Part shown: piece by piece, positions 57,205 through 64,000 of the stretch
Layout of the letters: every line of letters starts with the position of its first letter
How positions within the stretch are numbered: position 1 is the stretch's first letter
NCBI RefSeq assembly: GCF_007197735.1
Contig: NZ_CP041637.1
Coordinates: 1,302,001-1,366,000 of the forward strand
From: Formosa sediminum
GTDB lineage: Bacteria > Bacteroidota > Bacteroidia > Flavobacteriales > Flavobacteriaceae
Direction: 5' to 3'
Length of the DNA stretch: 64,000 nt
Notes under the pieces: model-generated
What the model was told of the DNA's origin: nothing
Seen by the model: the letters and a program-made list of their open reading frames with translations, nothing else
Database searches by the model: none
Translations under genes and position numbers: made by a program

Positions 57205-58134
57205 ATGGATATAAAGGAAGAGTTACAACATGTAGGCGGGTTTGTTAATCTGGAATTGTTGGCTAAACAAGTTGTAGAAGGGTTTATAGCAGGCATGCAT
57301 AAAAGTCCGTTTCATGGGTTTTCTGCAGAATTTGCTGAACATAAAATTTACAATCAAGGAGAAAGTACAAAACACATCGATTGGAAGTTGTATGCTAAGA
57401 CAGATAAACTCTATACTAAACGTTACGATGAAGAAACCAATTTACGCTGTCATTTAATTATAGACCATAGCAGCTCGATGCATTACCCAGCTTACCCGAG
57501 TTTTTCTTTAAATCAGTTAAATAAGAGTGCATTCTCGGCTTTAGCTTCTGCGTCTATAATGTACATCCTAAAAAAACAACGCGATGCTGTTGGTTTAAGT
57601 GTATATAGTAATACATATGATTATTATGCTCCTGAAAAAGGGAGTGATAGGCATCATCATATGCTTATTAATCAGTTAGAACATATGGTTAAGTCTCCAC
57701 CTAAGGCTAAAACAACAGATACTTATACATATTTACATCATATTGCAGAAAAACTTCATAAACGTTCTTTAATTGTTTTGTTTACAGATATGTTTCAAGA
57801 ATCTGTAAATAATGATCAATTATTTGAAGCTTTAAAGCACTTAAAATATAATAAACATGACGTTATTTTATTTCATGTGTTTGATGGTGAAAAAGAAAAG
57901 CTATTTAATTTTGATAATACTCCAAAACGTTTTGTTGATGTGGAAACAGGTGAATATATTAATGTATATGCAGATAATATAAAAGCAAATTACGAGAAGC
58001 AAATGGTAGATTATTTTGCTGCTTTAAAGTTAAAATGTGCACAGTATAAAATAAAATATGTTGAAGCAGATATAAATAATAAATTTGATAATGTGTTGAC
58101 TGCATTTATGTTAGAACGTTCCGGGTTTGTGTGA
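57205..58134 (+). CDS. DUF58 domain-containing protein (von Willebrand A-like)
   Basis: The 309 residues belong to DUF58. Conserved EHKIYNQGESTKHIDWKLYA lies near 45-64, and a metal-binding MIDAS-like D-x-S-x-S appears as DHSSSM (D87, S89, S91). In many bacteria DUF58 proteins work with a MoxR AAA ATPase and membrane BatA/BatB-type proteins as a chaperone-like complex; none of these is adjacent here. No membrane segment is present. Confidence 0.9.
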   Translation: MDIKEELQHVGGFVNLELLAKQVVEGFIAGMHKSPFHGFSAEFAEHKIYNQGESTKHIDWKLYAKTDKLYTKRYDEETNLRCHLIIDHSSSMHYPAYPSFSLNQLNKSAFSALASASIMYILKKQRDAVGLSVYSNTYDYYAPEKGSDRHHHMLINQLEHMVKSPPKAKTTDTYTYLHHIAEKLHKRSLIVLFTDMFQESVNNDQLFEALKHLKYNKHDVILFHVFDGEKEKLFNFDNTPKRFVDVETGEYINVYADNIKANYEKQMVDYFAALKLKCAQYKIKYVEADINNKFDNVLTAFMLERSGFV

Positions 58135-58167: not shown

Positions 58168-58197
58168 TTGTGTAGTTTAAAAAGCGTTGTATATTTG
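58168..58197 (+). promoter_or_regulatory. Promoter of the first tRNA-Asp gene
   Basis: TTG at 58168-58170, 19 bases, and TATATTTG at 58190-58197 fit the consensus. The tRNA starts 18 bases after the -7 box. Confidence 0.7.
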
Positions 58198-58215
58198 CAC
58201 TCGCAATAACGCAAC

Positions 58216-58289
58216 GGTCTGGTAGTTCAGCTGGTTAGAATACCTGCCTGTCACGCAGGGGGTCGCGGGTTCGAGTCCCGTCCAGACCG
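58216..58289 (+). tRNA. tRNA-Asp (anticodon GTC), copy 1
   Basis: A 74-base cloverleaf. The acceptor stem GGTCTGG pairs with CCAGACC, the anticodon arm CCTGC-CTGTCAC-GCAGG presents GTC, and the T-arm contains GGTTCGAGTCC. The discriminator is G and the CCA end is not encoded (the sequence continues CAAG). A terminator follows 12 bases downstream. Confidence 0.97.
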
Positions 58290-58301
58290 CAAGATTGCAT
58301 T

Positions 58302-58328
58302 AAGCTCCATAACGTGGAGCTTTTTTTT
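58302..58328 (+). terminator. Terminator after tRNA-Asp copy 1
   Basis: AAGCTCCA / TGGAGCTT, a perfect 8-bp stem with loop TAACG, runs into T8. Confidence 0.92.
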
Positions 58329-58351
58329 GCAACAAAAAGAAGTTGTGTTGT

Positions 58352-58394
58352 TTAGATAGACTTAGTGTCTGTCTAAGGTTTACGTTGTTAAACC
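58352..58394 (+). other. Stem-rich RNA-like segment after tRNA-Asp copy 1
   Basis: TTAGATAGAC (58352-58361) pairs with GTCTGTCTAA (58367-58376), followed directly by GGTTTA (58377-58382) with TAAACC (58389-58394). The same two stems occur in the second unit with changes that preserve pairing. Function unknown. Confidence 0.5.
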
Positions 58395-58402
58395 AATGAA
58401 AG

Positions 58403-58443
58403 GCTTTCCTTTTTTCAAATCTTGAAAATAGGGATGCTTTTTT
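58403..58443 (+). terminator. Second terminator in tRNA-Asp unit 1
   Basis: GCTTTCC with GGGATGC, and inside it TTTTCAA with TTGAAAA, form a long hairpin ending in T6. It is repeated in the second unit. Confidence 0.7.
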
Positions 58444-58566
58444 ATTTTAAGCCCTTTTGTGGCTCTAATAAATTGTTTTCTATGTGTTTATGTTTATTCT
58501 TTTTTTGAATTAAAATATCAGATAAAAAAATATGAAATATTATAGTTCAGTTATTAAAAAAGAGAG

Positions 58567-58574
58567 TATATTTG
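58567..58574 (+). promoter_or_regulatory. -7 box of the second tRNA-Asp gene
   Basis: TATATTTG is identical in position to copy 1, but the sequence where the -33 TTTG should be differs. Copy 2 may therefore be expressed more weakly. Confidence 0.5.
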
Positions 58575-58592
58575 CACTCGCAATAACGCAAC

Positions 58593-58666
58593 GGTCTGGT
58601 AGTTCAGCTGGTTAGAATACCTGCCTGTCACGCAGGGGGTCGCGGGTTCGAGTCCCGTCCAGACCG
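58593..58666 (+). tRNA. tRNA-Asp (anticodon GTC), copy 2
   Basis: Identical over all 74 bases to the tRNA at 58216-58289: GTC anticodon, acceptor GGTCTGG/CCAGACC and no encoded CCA. Confidence 0.97.
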
Positions 58667-58677
58667 CAAGATTGCTT

Positions 58678-58704
58678 AAGCTCCATAATTTGGAGCTTTT
58701 TTTT
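58678..58704 (+). terminator. Terminator after tRNA-Asp copy 2
   Basis: AAGCTCCA / TGGAGCTT with loop TAATT and T8; the loop differs from copy 1 but the stem is unchanged. Confidence 0.92.
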
Positions 58705-58727
58705 GCAACAAAAAGAAGTTGTGTTGT

Positions 58728-58770
58728 TTAGGTAGATCTAGTGTCTATCTAAGGTTTACGTTGTTAAACC
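58728..58770 (+). other. Stem-rich RNA-like segment after tRNA-Asp copy 2
   Basis: TTAGGTAGAT (58728-58737) pairs with GTCTATCTAA (58743-58752), followed by GGTTTA / TAAACC. Compared with copy 1, three stem bases differ and all still pair (as G-U, A-U or G-C). Confidence 0.5.
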
Positions 58771-58778
58771 AATGAAAT

Positions 58779-58820
58779 GCTTTCCTTTTTTCAAAAACTT
58801 GAAAATGGGGATGCTTTTTT
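58779..58820 (+). terminator. Second terminator in tRNA-Asp unit 2
   Basis: GCTTTCC with GGGGATGC and inner TTTTCAA / TTGAAAA, loop AAAC, followed by T6. Confidence 0.7.
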
Positions 58821-58849
58821 GTTTTATAGGTATGCTAGATTGTTAAATG

Positions 58850-58890
58850 AAAAAACTGGAAACAAACTATTAGTTGTAGTTCCAGTTTTT
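58850..58890 (-). terminator. Terminator of the transglutaminase/ATP-grasp operon
   Basis: AAAAACTGGAA and TTCCAGTTTTT form a perfect 11-bp stem with an 18-base loop. On the minus strand it ends in six T, 18 bases past the stop at 58908. Confidence 0.85.
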
Positions 58891-58907: not shown

Positions 58908-59795
58908 TTATGCAGGTCTAATATCTACAGCAACATTCATTTTATTTTTGCCTGTGCTATATACAACGCCTTTTAATGGTGGAACATCATAATAATCACG
59001 GCCCCAAGATACAGTAATGTGTTGGTTTTTTGGAATCTGATTATTAGTAGGGTCAAAATCTACCCAGCCAAAGGTTGGAATATAAACAGAGAACCATGCA
59101 TGCGAGGCATCTGTACCCACTAATTTTTCTTTTCCAGGTGGTGGTAAGGTTTCTATATATCCACTAACATAACGTGCAGGTAAACCCATAGAACGCACAC
59201 AAGCAATTGCTATTTGTGCAAAATCTTGGCAGACTCCTTTTTTTGCCTTAATAACTTCCTGTATTGGAGTTGCTATGGTACTAAATTCTGAATCGAATTT
59301 AAATTCTGTAAAAATACGTTGCATTAATTCAAAAGCAGCATCAAAAACAGAACGGTTTGGTTTGAATGATTTTTCTGCATAAGCTTTAACTTCAGGAGAA
59401 ATTTGTGCTATAAATATAGAATCTAGTATAAATTGTTTTATGTCTATAAACTCTTTATTGTTTGTTTCTAAAATAGATAGTGCCTCTTTTAAGGTTATGG
59501 TCTTTCCTGTTTCGGATAGGTCTATATTGGGCTCTAGCTCATAATTTCTATCAATAATGCTTCGAGCTGTAACATTTAATTTTTTGTGATGCTGCTGAAT
59601 TGAAAAGCGTGTGATTGTATTTCCAAAAAAATCTAAACGTTCTGTAATTTCTGAAGGTTTAGGGCTAATTTCCAACGTGTAATCTAAAAGTGTTTGCCCA
59701 ACCATTGTTTTTGGTTTTAACGTAGCAATATTATGGCAAAAAGTAACGCCACTATCATAATCGTAACTGGTGGTATGTGAGACTTTAAATTCCAT
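58908..59795 (-). CDS. Transglutaminase-like cysteine peptidase family protein
   Basis: The 295 residues have an N-terminal beta-rich domain (about 1-85), then a transglutaminase-like core. Its papain-type triad is C189 in KKGVCQDFAQI, H232 in TDASHAWFSVYI and D248 in WVDFDPTN. Bacterial members of this group act as peptidases or amide-exchange enzymes. There is no signal peptide, so it is probably cytosolic. It starts two bases after the ATP-grasp gene ends, and in many genomes this trio is clustered, implying that it trims or crosslinks the product of the neighbouring ligases. Confidence 0.92.
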   Translation of the reverse strand: MEFKVSHTTSYDYDSGVTFCHNIATLKPKTMVGQTLLDYTLEISPKPSEITERLDFFGNTITRFSIQQHHKKLNVTARSIIDRNYELEPNIDLSETGKTITLKEALSILETNNKEFIDIKQFILDSIFIAQISPEVKAYAEKSFKPNRSVFDAAFELMQRIFTEFKFDSEFSTIATPIQEVIKAKKGVCQDFAQIAIACVRSMGLPARYVSGYIETLPPPGKEKLVGTDASHAWFSVYIPTFGWVDFDPTNNQIPKNQHITVSWGRDYYDVPPLKGVVYSTGKNKMNVAVDIRPA

Positions 59796-59797
59796 AA

Positions 59798-62359
59798 TTA
59801 TAAATTGAAATTTTGATTAACTAATTGTTTTTGTTGGTAAGAATGATTAAAATAAGTGTCTGAAATGGCTAATGACATTTCGTGAAGTAAATCACTAAGT
59901 ACAGTTAATGCATCGTCTAAATTTTGCCTTATTACAGTGCCTTCTTTTATACTTAGTAAGGATTGTAAATTTAAATTTTGAATTAAACTATGAGCATCTG
60001 CAATGAACTTCTGGCAATCTGTAGTATCTCCTAAACTTTCAGGATGCGGTAATCTGTCTATATCTTTTTGAATACGTCTAAGCTGGTAAGCTAAAGATTT
60101 AGGATATTCATCGTCCAGTAAGATAAGTCCGATTACGTTTTCTGTGCTTAAATGCGAACGATAACTGTATCGGTAAATATTTAAACTTTCATGGCTAGAA
60201 AGTAAAGCCTCTAAAATTTCGTATTGAGGTTGTTCTTTATAATTTATTACTAATAGAGAACGGCATTTAGCAATACTCATCATAGATTGCTCGGATTGTA
60301 AACCAATAAAATATAAAAGTAAACCTTGTTCTACTAAAATACTTTCTTCTATAAGTCCCATAAATGCGATAAGTCTTGTAATAATCTTATCTAGTATTTT
60401 GACCATAGATTGTATGGATGTGTTTTCGTTAGCTTCTTCAATAAAAATTCTCCAATTTTTCTGAATTCCATCAAAAACACGCCACATGTCTTTAGACCAT
60501 AAATTACGTAAAGTGTAATACGAATTGTTAAAGCTTGACAGTGTTTGCGCAAAACTTCCAATTCTATTTTTATCAATTAAAATAGAAAGGATTTCTTTTA
60601 AAGGATCTTCTAAAGCAGATTTTCCTTTTTCACCTATAAATCCAGGAAAGGTAGATGTAATGTGTGTTATAGATTTTAATAAACAAACCAAGCTATCAGA
60701 CTTAACTTTTTGCTTGTTGTATTGTTCATTACTCATTTTATTTAGTACTGTTCTTAAATATCTAGCGGTCACCAATGCGCGACCTAAATACCGTCCAGAC
60801 CAATAAAGGTTTTCTGCTGTATTACTTGGCAAGTCATTAATGCCTGAAATAGAAATTTTACAACTATTGTCCCAAGAATAATTTTGAATACTTGTTTGAG
60901 GTTTATCAGTAACAACCCAAAAATCTTTACTTACCCCTCCACGATGATTAGAAACAAACAGGTCTTCACGCTCGGCAGCGACTCTAACTAATCCGCCAGG
61001 CATAATTGAATATCCGTCGTTTTTAGCTATTGAAAATGCTCTGCACATTACCTTGCGAGGTTCTAATTTTCCATTAATAAAATCTGGAGCTGTAGAGAAC
61101 ATAATTTTTTCTTGAGCAACAAACACATAAGGGTTGGTAATAATTTCTTTTTTAAGTTTTTCTAGGTCTTCTTTCTTTAAAAACTCACAAAATACAATGC
61201 TTTCTCTGTTAGATCGATCTATACGTTTTAAAACTAAATTTGTTAGGTTTTCTAAAACGTAATCGCGTTCTTTTTTTTGACCACACCACCATGAGCCAAT
61301 TTGGGGAAGAATTAAATCTTCTTTAAAAAAATATTTACAAACAGCATTCATAAATGGAATAAGGCCAGAGTTTTCTAAAATTCCGCTTCCTATTGGGTTT
61401 ACAATAGTTACTTGTTGTTCTCTAACCACATCAAGTAAACCGGCAACACCTAAATAAGAATCTTCACGGAGTTCTAAAGGATCCATAAACACATCGTCTA
61501 CGCGTTTTAAGATAACATCTACCTGTTTAAGTTCTTTTAAAGATTTCATCCATACTTTACCATCTCTAACAACCAAATCGTTTCCTGCAACTAAAGGATA
61601 ACCTAAAAAAGAAGACATGTATGCATGCTCAAAATAGGTTTCGTTTAAGGGGCCAGGTGTAAGTATAACAATATTTGGATTGTCTCTGTTTTGAGGCGCT
61701 GCATCCAAAAGCATTTTGTTAAAATCTGAAAAGAATGTTGTAGGTGGTTTTACATGAATATCCTTAAATATATCTGGTAAAATACGGCTAGTTGCATATC
61801 TGTTTTCTAAAGCGTATCCCATGCCAGAAGGCGCTTGCGTTCTATCGTTAACAACCCACATTCTGCCATCTGGCCCACGGGCAAGATCTGCAGAATGGAT
61901 TAATAAATTTTTAGCTGTTTTATATTGAATTTGATCGCACTGTCTTAAAAATCCACGATGTGCATATATAACCTCTAACGGAATAATTCCATTTTTTATA
62001 AGCTCGCGTTTGCCATAAATATCTTTTAACGTAAGGTTTAATAATTCCGAACGTTGTTGCATCCCTTTTTCAATGGTTTCCCATTCTTTTTCATGAATTA
62101 GAAAGGGTACAATGTTTAGTTGCCAAGAGCGGTGCATGCCTTTAGGGTCGTTGTAAACATTATACGTTACTCCGTTCTCGTCCATTAACCAATCCATCTC
62201 GTTTTGTTTTGAGATCATGGCTTTATTACCCATATGGGTAAGATTGTTTAGTAATTTTTCCCAATTTGGATTTACAGACATATTAGATTTTAAGACTTCG
62301 TCGTAATTCTTAAAGTCTGAAAAATAATTATCAAAAAGGGTGTTTTTATCAATGGGCAT
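59798..62359 (-). CDS. Circularly permuted ATP-grasp ligase fused to an alpha-E domain
   Basis: Residues about 1-480 are the permuted ATP-grasp type 2 domain with RGPDGRMWVVNDRTQAPSGM near 160, DDVFMDPLELREDS near 290, IVNPIGSGILENSG and IGSWWCGQ near 355. Residues about 505-840 are the helical alpha-E domain starting LPSNTAENLYWSGRYLGRA. The two halves are separate genes (COG2308 and COG2307) in many bacteria. ATP-grasp enzymes form amide bonds from a carboxylate and an amine. The fusion and the adjacent transglutaminase and DUF2126 genes point to synthesis of a small peptide-like compound or peptide tagging; the substrate is unknown. Confidence 0.93.
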   Translation of the reverse strand: MPIDKNTLFDNYFSDFKNYDEVLKSNMSVNPNWEKLLNNLTHMGNKAMISKQNEMDWLMDENGVTYNVYNDPKGMHRSWQLNIVPFLIHEKEWETIEKGMQQRSELLNLTLKDIYGKRELIKNGIIPLEVIYAHRGFLRQCDQIQYKTAKNLLIHSADLARGPDGRMWVVNDRTQAPSGMGYALENRYATSRILPDIFKDIHVKPPTTFFSDFNKMLLDAAPQNRDNPNIVILTPGPLNETYFEHAYMSSFLGYPLVAGNDLVVRDGKVWMKSLKELKQVDVILKRVDDVFMDPLELREDSYLGVAGLLDVVREQQVTIVNPIGSGILENSGLIPFMNAVCKYFFKEDLILPQIGSWWCGQKKERDYVLENLTNLVLKRIDRSNRESIVFCEFLKKEDLEKLKKEIITNPYVFVAQEKIMFSTAPDFINGKLEPRKVMCRAFSIAKNDGYSIMPGGLVRVAAEREDLFVSNHRGGVSKDFWVVTDKPQTSIQNYSWDNSCKISISGINDLPSNTAENLYWSGRYLGRALVTARYLRTVLNKMSNEQYNKQKVKSDSLVCLLKSITHITSTFPGFIGEKGKSALEDPLKEILSILIDKNRIGSFAQTLSSFNNSYYTLRNLWSKDMWRVFDGIQKNWRIFIEEANENTSIQSMVKILDKIITRLIAFMGLIEESILVEQGLLLYFIGLQSEQSMMSIAKCRSLLVINYKEQPQYEILEALLSSHESLNIYRYSYRSHLSTENVIGLILLDDEYPKSLAYQLRRIQKDIDRLPHPESLGDTTDCQKFIADAHSLIQNLNLQSLLSIKEGTVIRQNLDDALTVLSDLLHEMSLAISDTYFNHSYQQKQLVNQNFNL

Positions 62360-62366
62360 TAATTAT

Positions 62367-64000
62367 CTATTTTTTTCTTAGATCTAAAGTATATGGAAAC
62401 TCAAAATTAATTGGTTGTTCTATATATCTAAATTTACGAGAACCTTCATGGGTTTCTATATTTATACTAGAATTATTGTCGTCTTGTTCAATTTTTTCAA
62501 CTTCAAAAATTTCGCCTTGTGTATGACCTTGATCCCAAAAACGATTAATACGTCTTGATTCTGCCTCATAACTATTTACAGGGTAAGTCTTATATGAACG
62601 TCCTCCTGGATGAGAAACAAAATAAGTACAGCCTCCAATAGCGCGTTTGTTCCAAGTGTCAATAATATCAAAAACCAATGGGGTATCTACATCAATTGTT
62701 GGGTGTAAAGAGGAGTGTGGATTCCAAGCTTTATATCTAATGCTTGCAACATATTCGCCTTTAACACCAGTGTTATTTAAATTTACTTTAACACCGTTGC
62801 AAGTTAATACAAATCTTTCTTCTGTGAAATGAGAAACTTTTACTTGTAAGCGTTCTACAGAAGAATCTACATATCTTGCTGTACCGCCACCTGTCATTTC
62901 TTCACCGAGAACATTCCAAGGTTCGATAGCCGCACGTAGCTCTAGGTTTATATTGTTTATTTCTACCATTCCATGTAATGGAAATCTAAATTCGAAAAAT
63001 GGATCAAACCAATCTTCTTTAAATTTGTAACCTGCTTTATTCAGTTGGTTTACAATATCTTTAATGTCTTCTCTTACATAGTGTTCTGTTAAAAATTTAT
63101 CGTGTAGTTCTGTGCCCCAACGTACTAAATTATGTTCGTAAGGTTTTTTCCAGAACCAAGCGACTAATGTTCTAACTAATAAATTTTGCATTAAGCTCAT
63201 TTGTGGGTGTGGTGGCATATCAAAGGCGCGTAGCTCTAAAATACCTAAACGTCCGGAGGATGAGTCTGGTGAGTATAACTTATCTATACAGAATTCTGCA
63301 CGGTGTGTATTCCCTGTTAAATCGGTTAAAAGGTGTCGGAATAATCTATCGGTTAACCAAAACGGGACTTTACCATTTTTAGGAATCTGGCTAAAAGCAA
63401 TCTCCAATTCATAGAGGTTTTCCATTCTTGCTTCATCTATACGTGGTGCCTGACTTGTAGCCCCAATAAATGCGCCTGAAAACAAGTACGATAATCCTGG
63501 ATGGTGTTGCCAAAATGTTAGTAAACTGCGTAACAGGCTTGGTTTGCGTAATAGTGGGCTATCTGCAGGAGTAATACCTCCTAAAGTAACATGGTTACCA
63601 CCTCCAGTTCCAGTGTGTTTTCCATCTAACATGAATTTTTCAGTACCTAAACGAGATTCTTTAGCTAAACGGTATAATGTTAATGTGTTATGTGTAAGTT
63701 CTTCCCAGTTTTTAGCAGGCTGTACATTTACTTCAATCACACCAGGATCTGGCGTAATTTTCATGGATTCTAAACGGTTATCATGAGGTGGATTGTAACC
63801 TTCTAGTACAACAGGAATTTTTAATTCTTTTGCAGTAGATTCTATAGAGGCTATTAAATCTAAAAAGATTTCTGCAGAATCTAGAGGTGGTAAAAATAAA
63901 TGCAATTTTTGATCTCTAACTTCTGCACATATAGCTGTCCTGATAAAGTAATTACAATCGTCTTGCGTTATTCCTTCTTCATTAACTTTTCGAATACGTC
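62367..64000 (-). CDS. DUF2126 putative amidoligase, partial at window edge
   Basis: The frame is open from the stop at 62367 to the right edge, about 543 residues, so the N-terminus is missing. The visible part matches DUF2126 (putative amidoligase): DSAEIFLDLIASIESTAKEL, GKHTGTGGGNHVTLGG, ADSPLLRKPSLLRSLLTFWQ and RAEFCIDKLYSPDSSSGRLG. Full-length proteins are about 1100 residues with a transglutaminase-like domain at the N-terminus, which would lie outside. An in-frame TTG at 63903-63905 is not a likely start because upstream codons continue the family sequence. The ATP-grasp gene follows with a seven-base gap. Confidence 0.93.
   Translation of the reverse strand, partial: RIRKVNEEGITQDDCNYFIRTAICAEVRDQKLHLFLPPLDSAEIFLDLIASIESTAKELKIPVVLEGYNPPHDNRLESMKITPDPGVIEVNVQPAKNWEELTHNTLTLYRLAKESRLGTEKFMLDGKHTGTGGGNHVTLGGITPADSPLLRKPSLLRSLLTFWQHHPGLSYLFSGAFIGATSQAPRIDEARMENLYELEIAFSQIPKNGKVPFWLTDRLFRHLLTDLTGNTHRAEFCIDKLYSPDSSSGRLGILELRAFDMPPHPQMSLMQNLLVRTLVAWFWKKPYEHNLVRWGTELHDKFLTEHYVREDIKDIVNQLNKAGYKFKEDWFDPFFEFRFPLHGMVEINNINLELRAAIEPWNVLGEEMTGGGTARYVDSSVERLQVKVSHFTEERFVLTCNGVKVNLNNTGVKGEYVASIRYKAWNPHSSLHPTIDVDTPLVFDIIDTWNKRAIGGCTYFVSHPGGRSYKTYPVNSYEAESRRINRFWDQGHTQGEIFEVEKIEQDDNNSSINIETHEGSRKFRYIEQPINFEFPYTLDLRKK

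Follow-up and report, generated by a model that had tools for sequence, protein, structure and literature searches.

The stretch of DNA analysed here, referred to as the window (G000:C1:1302001-1366000), comprises 64,000 nucleotides of contig NZ_CP041637.1 of Formosa sediminum and ends in a trio of minus-strand genes. These encode a transglutaminase-like (TG) protein, TG1, a circularly permuted ATP-grasp domain fused to an alpha-E domain, and a TG-DUF2126 protein that runs off the window edge. In window coordinates, the genes and the feature closing them are as follows.

58851..58890, minus strand: terminator-like hairpin with a T run, closing the operon (-12.7 kcal/mol, z -3.7)
58908..59795, minus strand: transglutaminase-like protein TG1, 295 amino acids (aa) (PF08379, 1.7e-25; PF01841, 6.3e-21)
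59798..62359, minus strand: circularly permuted ATP-grasp fused to alpha-E, 853 aa (PF14403, 2.2e-145; PF04168, 1.6e-53)
62367..64000, minus strand: C-terminal half of the TG-DUF2126 protein, identified with Pfam (open reading frame (ORF) 62367-63998, open at the window edge)

These coordinates agree with the original prediction, made from the window alone, of three minus-strand genes separated by gaps of 2 and 7 bases. In Pfam searches TG1 consists of Bact_transglu_N and Transglut_core domains, and its Cys-His-Asp triad is complete, as had been claimed; the fused protein matches CP_ATPgrasp_2/CP_ATPgrasp_1 and Alpha-E, and the window part of the TG-DUF2126 protein covers positions 318-826 of the 826 of the DUF2126 profile. 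Reading the same contig past position 64000 supplied the missing N-terminus: the complete gene (L002:6368-9721) encodes 1,117 aa from its first ATG; with the ATG that relatives share taken as the start, it shortens to L002:6368-9700 and 1,110 aa. The completed protein gives a full-length PF09899 (DUF2126) match, and its N-terminus, outside the window and thus beyond what the original prediction could show, is a second TG domain, again Bact_transglu_N plus Transglut_core. The terminator proposed at 58850-58890 also holds, with none of 200 shuffles as stable as the hairpin at 58851-58890; this hairpin is absent from the list of a simple terminator scan for loops of 3-8 bases, probably because its loop is longer than that.

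The E-x-N motif is the metal site of the ATP-grasp superfamily. In the fused protein of the window it is replaced by N-D-R, VVNDR standing where both the solved structure 3n6x and a standalone ATP-grasp of the same genome have VLEDN; the latter two continue with PSG and have a K followed by a GGYG loop, while the loop region of the window protein reads KRIDRSNRES, with SNRES at the place of GGYG. The comparison covered 106 rows of fused proteins, 81 from the best 80 of 525 loci related by their DUF2126 protein (own locus included), 13 from a sample of 149 genomes of the taxonomic family of the window, called Flavobacteriaceae after the named relatives, and 12 from a phylum sample of 345 genomes or a plasmid collection, and 62 rows of standalone ATP-grasps (26, 29, and 7 from the same sources). 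Both sets hold near-identical copies, some genomes were entered twice, and L019, the standalone locus of F. sediminum, was counted twice; standalone ATP-grasps beside the trio in L024, L026, L027, L030, and L031 lie outside the 62 rows. The Glu of E-x-N is present in 0/106 fused rows versus 62/62 standalone rows, and the Asn, found in all 62 standalone rows, is Arg in 106/106 fused ones. Each Gly of the GGYG loop is present in 62/62 standalone rows, whereas the complete loop, like its third Gly, occurs in 0/106 fused rows, two of which are gapped in this region; the first metal Asp is D in 97 fused rows and E in 9. The fused and standalone profiles align collinearly and without gaps at the metal-motif and loop sites, and the loss of these residues is uniform in fused proteins of three phyla. 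After thinning at 80% identity (44 fused and 19 standalone rows), the fused rows form one clade in a midpoint-rooted tree (44/44 tips, support 0.94).

The ATP-grasp fold itself is retained, as judged from an AlphaFold model of the fused protein (mean predicted local distance difference test score, pLDDT, 85.9) with Foldseek matches to 3n6x (1.1e-31) and glutathione synthetase (5e-11). The matches following 3n6x are glutathione, homoglutathione, and glutathionylspermidine synthetases and Cp1B, described in the available part of PMC12568646 as the ligase of the fungal E-64 pathway. Thus the fused protein shares the ATP-grasp fold with glutathionylspermidine synthetase/amidase and the eukaryotic glutathione synthetase but differs from them in lacking the metal motif, whereas 3n6x, a putative glutathionylspermidine synthase from Methylobacillus flagellatus, carries both VLEDN and the GGYG loop and hence belongs to the standalone type; sequence searches gave no other solved relative. 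For the alpha-E fold, the best 50 of 402 Foldseek rows of the fused model contained no convincing solved relative. Within alpha-E, the Glu of an 'ER' motif is present in 63/63 standalone versus 11/106 fused rows (82 G, 10 A, and 3 other residues), the window protein having 'GR'; its loss was rejected as a general mark of the fusion, because those 11 rows, two of them from within the family (L191 and L193) and the rest printed rows of other origin, retain the Glu. Because the metal motif and glycine loop are lost while the fold is intact, the fused ATP-grasp can probably be considered a conserved pseudo-ligase, and the fusion is most readily viewed as a non-catalytic partner that has been conserved, an enzyme with changed chemistry being less likely. 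The original prediction had assigned amide-bond formation to this protein and had named in advance the absence of catalytic residues as evidence to the contrary; with E-x-N and the loop changed throughout, that assignment is not supported.

Intact counterparts of both fused domains are encoded by the same genome, where a second alpha-E lies at C1:1164181, approximately 195 kb from the trio and outside the window, within a three-gene set.

L019:6708-8174: standalone ATP-grasp, with E-x-N and GGYG intact
L019:8182-9126: standalone alpha-E
L019:9182-10036: TG-like protein of the standalone set

The existence of this pair argues against the single operon being the whole pathway, as first proposed. 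Of the 149 genomes of the family sample, DUF2126 is present in 14 and alpha-E in 32. Alpha-E is fused as well as standalone (one or more copies) in all 14 DUF2126 genomes, as compared with 18 of the 135 others, which have the standalone form only (Fisher p = 2.9e-11; this and the other co-occurrence p values are uncorrected for kinship). All 34 standalone alpha-E genes of this sample adjoin a standalone ATP-grasp. In the phylum sample DUF2126 is present in 12 genomes, the own one included, and three of the remaining 11 belong to the own family; all 11 have a standalone alpha-E, and eight a fused one. Among the best 80 loci, 25 have the standalone pair at no more than about 2.1 kb from the trio, downstream and convergent in 16, upstream and divergent in 7, and downstream on the same strand in 2; nine of the 80 have short flanks, and the pair occurs in 21 of the 71 with full flanks. 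Judged by gene content and placement, the trio and the standalone pair read as the two halves of a single set, brought side by side on repeated occasions. No fixed extra gene beside the trio could be proposed, since the most frequent other clusters in the 80 loci are the standalone ATP-grasp (25) and alpha-E themselves, followed by blocks present in 20 loci or fewer, few of them annotated.

One type of standalone ATP-grasp/alpha-E/TG set, at L158, is accompanied by a divergent gene for an extracytoplasmic function (ECF) sigma factor (L158:3613-4191, assigned with Pfam at L158 only), and genes of similar length occupy this place in several other standalone sets; a regulatory role is possible. 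The other neighbours searched with Pfam at L158 comprise a polyprenyl synthetase, an RlmN-like protein, and a queuosine enzyme, which were taken as housekeeping and discarded as functional partners, together with two proteins without a family.

The trio keeps its order and strand in all 80 related loci, the best-scoring ones and hence near relatives. By record title, nearly all belong to genera of Flavobacteriaceae, the two exceptions being titled Bacteroidia bacterium and Cytophaga sp.; the closest named relative listed is Formosa algae (93%), and records very near the own genome may be omitted. The gap between the fusion and TG genes, overlaps included, does not exceed 10 bases in any of the 80, and that between the TG-DUF2126 and fusion genes is at most 40 bases in 73, with a maximum of 310; L034 has a short additional predicted ORF between the first two genes. 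The view that the trio forms one operon, as originally proposed, is thus supported, at least as an operon-like unit defined by gene arrangement. The further expectation that the three genes travel together holds for these 80 close relatives and only partly outside them: in the phylum sample the trio is collinear in three of the 11 further DUF2126 genomes (L190, L193, and L194).

The trio is also found in the plasmid collection, of whose 25 DUF2126 records nine were looked at. The trio together with the standalone pair is present in four of them: Enterobacter roggenkampii L172, Caballeronia L173, Burkholderia cenocepacia L174 (GC-rich, its genes located by tblastn), and Halomonas L199. In a further four, Azospirillum L200, Shinella L202, Granulicella L203, and Caballeronia L204, the trio stands alone in the stretch viewed, and the ninth, Acidithiobacillus caldus L201, has TG-DUF2126 domains and the standalone pair and lacks the fusion; the L199 and L201 records look frameshifted or split and were searched in pieces only. 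In E. roggenkampii, insertion sequence (IS) element genes stand on both sides of the stretch of plasmid NZ_CP116251.1 that holds pair and trio, five genes in all, and this arrangement suggests that the set may move as a unit.

A different interpretation of the fused protein is that its ATP-grasp is active but unusual, the invariant Arg neutralising charge at the metal site, and that the trio alone makes the bond. The Arg is shared by every fused row, and other pocket residues are kept as well: the K in 101 of 106 rows, the R287 equivalent in 105, the R443 equivalent in 104, and the K481 equivalent in 102, so that the site appears to be under selection. With several of these residues kept, the fused ATP-grasp may still bind ATP or a substrate. 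Moreover, the trio lacks a neighbouring standalone pair in the regions viewed of the Granulicella, Azospirillum, Shinella, and Caballeronia SBC2 records. Against this, the Glu ligand, the Asn ligand, and the nucleotide-holding glycine loop are all changed together, and all 25 DUF2126 genomes searched whole also carry a standalone alpha-E; activity of this kind is quite unlikely. For the pseudo-ligase a fuller history can be outlined, the chances of which are evenly balanced: the fusion would be ancient, arising by duplication of an ATP-grasp and by remodelling of its metal site around the invariant Arg before the spread over at least three phyla, and would hold a substrate or product for TG-DUF2126 in an assembly with the separate standalone gene as the sole source of canonical ATP-grasp activity.

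The TG domains of the two halves differ in the own genome. The Cys and His are present in 80/80 loci in both TG domains of the trio, TG1 and the N-terminus of TG-DUF2126. The TG of the standalone set in the own genome (L019:9182-10036) has Ser for Cys and Ser for His. The Cys is kept in 27 of 29 standalone-set TGs checked in the family, both exceptions coming from Formosa; in six genomes of the genus the Cys is lost in five and the His in three, only G489 keeping both; in all six, TG1 retains Cys and His, and the TG-DUF2126 frame spans 1,114-1,126 aa. The reading frame of the standalone-set TG is open, and the ratio of nonsynonymous to synonymous substitution rates (dN/dS) is about 0.16-0.38 between the own gene and the others; for TG1, four of the five comparisons with the own genome give about 0.02-0.07 and the remaining one is saturated (in both cases dS is high and the ratios are rough). 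This pattern fits a division of labour in which the trio TGs would do the cutting for both halves.

Taken together, these data make it reasonably probable that the trio in the window is one half of a dispersed set that would make and edit a peptide-type amide bond, with a non-catalytic fused ATP-grasp and the intact pair encoded elsewhere. ATP-dependent activation of a carboxylate and its coupling to an amine would fall to the standalone ATP-grasp, and possibly to DUF2126 too; the fused protein would be the non-catalytic partner holding the substrate, the product, or another subunit; and the two trio TG domains would act as cysteine amidases or transamidases cutting or exchanging the bond. The model for the TG role is glutathionylspermidine synthetase/amidase, a ligase working with a cysteine amidase, in which the amidase half cuts the amide bond; the TG fold is a cysteine hydrolase different from that amidase. 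By analogy with other bacteria the set may be switched on by nitrogen limitation.

Several observations weigh against this interpretation, in addition to the retained pocket residues of the fused protein. The set is not uniformly arranged in the phylum sample: in two of the 11 further DUF2126 genomes (L187 and L191) the trio is linked with DUF2126 on the opposite strand, in three (G237, G280, and G425) the trio genes lie apart, from 14 kb to separate contigs, and in three, all of one family (L195-L197), the fusion is missing, DUF2126 being divergent from a set of ATP-grasp, alpha-E, and Anbu-like genes. In 18 genomes of the family sample the standalone set occurs without DUF2126, and thus the standalone set also works alone. 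The weakest step is the ligase role of DUF2126, which rests on the Pfam name and a motif likeness: hhalign comparison of DUF2126 with glutamine synthetase profiles was not significant, in a test made weak by narrow profiles; the structure model of TG-DUF2126 is weak (pLDDT 65), and its sole Foldseek match below E 0.001 is 3isr, a TG-type protein, which covers the TG half. Finally, the nitrogen link comes from other phyla and is carried over to Formosa by analogy.

The peptidases found near the set bear on another explanation, in which the ligases attach a peptide tag to proteins and a peptidase, Anbu elsewhere and Peptidase_Mx here, removes or degrades the tag. Such tagging was proposed earlier, as far as the available text of PMC6376114 goes. 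Anbu-like proteins (PF00227, or similar to one that matches it) adjoin the ATP-grasp/alpha-E pair in L143 and L195-L197, PF00227 matching the 247 and 255 aa Anbu-like proteins of L171 and L143. Peptidase_Mx (PF15887) or a similar protein adjoins parts of the set in five loci, L144, L173, L194, L199, and L204. In the family sample Peptidase_Mx exceeds the cut-off in nine of the 149 genomes, all nine among the 32 with alpha-E (p = 3.6e-7), and in seven of the 14 DUF2126 genomes (p = 4e-7); within the alpha-E genomes the excess with DUF2126 is modest (7/14 vs. 2/18 without it, p = 0.02). The genome of F. sediminum has one such gene, unlinked to the trio.

C1:966717-967466 (L205): Peptidase_Mx metallopeptidase

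The same counts also limit the tagging explanation, half of the DUF2126 genomes having no Peptidase_Mx above the cut-off, and a tenth family genome, with a match below it, having no alpha-E. A proteasome-family (PF00227) match is present in only one of the 14 DUF2126 genomes and absent from that of F. sediminum, and Anbu was therefore rejected as the missing peptidase of this genome. Published work, in the part of PMC6376114 available, describes Anbu as having no peptidase activity, and the standalone-type ATP-grasp of the Yersinia bercovieri Anbu operon as releasing phosphate from ATP, with no stimulation by Anbu, glutamine, or glutamate. The Anbu operons of Y. bercovieri and Pseudomonas resemble Formosa L019 in their adjoining ATP-grasp, alpha-E, and TG genes and differ from the Formosa genome, which has no proteasome-family match, in that the published operon, as far as presented there, contains neither DUF2126 nor the fused protein. 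Overall, tagging and degradation appear an unlikely function of the set. A link with iridescence through a Tenacibaculum metallopeptidase (PMC12521978) was also considered and dropped, as the accessible portion of that paper mentions neither transglutaminase nor ATP-grasp.

The set could instead serve a small-molecule or storage-peptide pathway, yielding a glutathionylspermidine-like compound or a nitrogen-reserve amide that would be built up under nitrogen shortage and broken down hydrolytically by the TG proteins. In favour of this are the structural neighbours of the fused ATP-grasp, namely glutathione, homoglutathione, and glutathionylspermidine synthetases, and data on regulation in other bacteria. 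In B. cenocepacia, cluster I35_5080-83 needs NtrC and sigma54 for activation, according to the available part of PMC5491218. Another strain of this species (L174) has, in a row, genes for a standalone ATP-grasp, alpha-E, TG, TG-DUF2126, the fusion, and TG, the first four of which match the products listed in that source for I35_5080-83; the B. cenocepacia cluster forms one contiguous stretch, in contrast to the two distant loci of Formosa. Next to the A. caldus copy lie an amidase gene and ntrBC, Anbu increases in Pseudomonas putida when nitrogen is limiting (cited in the available text of PMC5666114), and DUF403/404/407 track urea-metabolism domains in marine metagenomes, as stated in the portion of PMC3597751 at hand. 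NtrC control fits induction for scavenging equally well, however, and the clusters other than the trio and the standalone pair, most of them unannotated, are each limited to 20 of the 80 loci or fewer, which leaves no transporter or substrate gene as a clue to the compound. A pathway of this type is possible, though short of probable.

The surroundings of the operon include several further features. The next gene upstream of that for TG-DUF2126, 220 bases off, encodes a DUF2914-domain protein, and past it a short ORF (L002:11461-11955) resembles, as judged by eye, a fragment of an M14-type carboxypeptidase. On the other side, the window contains two tandem tRNA-Asp (GTC) genes (58177-58298 and 58554-58675) inside a duplication of about 377 bases, which includes the terminator-like hairpins of these genes, with flanks at 58300-58448 and 58676-58824. 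A DUF58/VWA-like protein is encoded at 57205-58134, immediately after thioredoxin.

A set of this kind was predicted in 2009 by Iyer et al., and DUF2126 and fusions were reportedly part of that prediction. The 2009 set of TG, ATP-grasp, alpha-E, and DUF2126, as cited in the available parts of PMC5666114, PMC6376114, and PMC3597751, corresponds to the Formosa locus in its four domain types and tight gene linkage (COG1305, COG2308, and COG2307); all domains of the trio were matched in Pfam and the trio is linked, confirming the membership first claimed for it. The Formosa genome differs from the 2009 set in two respects, the position of the intact ATP-grasp/alpha-E pair, which is not linked to the trio, and the missing metal motif of the fused ATP-grasp. 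The accessible open-licence literature on DUF2126 and alpha-E/ATP-grasp contained no product of the set, in line with the original prediction, and no remark on the degenerate fusion. The description of the locus as a candidate for an undescribed system is not supported: because the trio is also present in Pseudomonadota and Acidobacteriota, the Formosa locus is a member of a set already described as a prediction, and not a new system. For this member, the distribution of intact and degenerate domains over two halves guides the choice of a protein for assays and of genes for a joint deletion, and offers a reason why rebuilding the three-gene operon on its own may fail.

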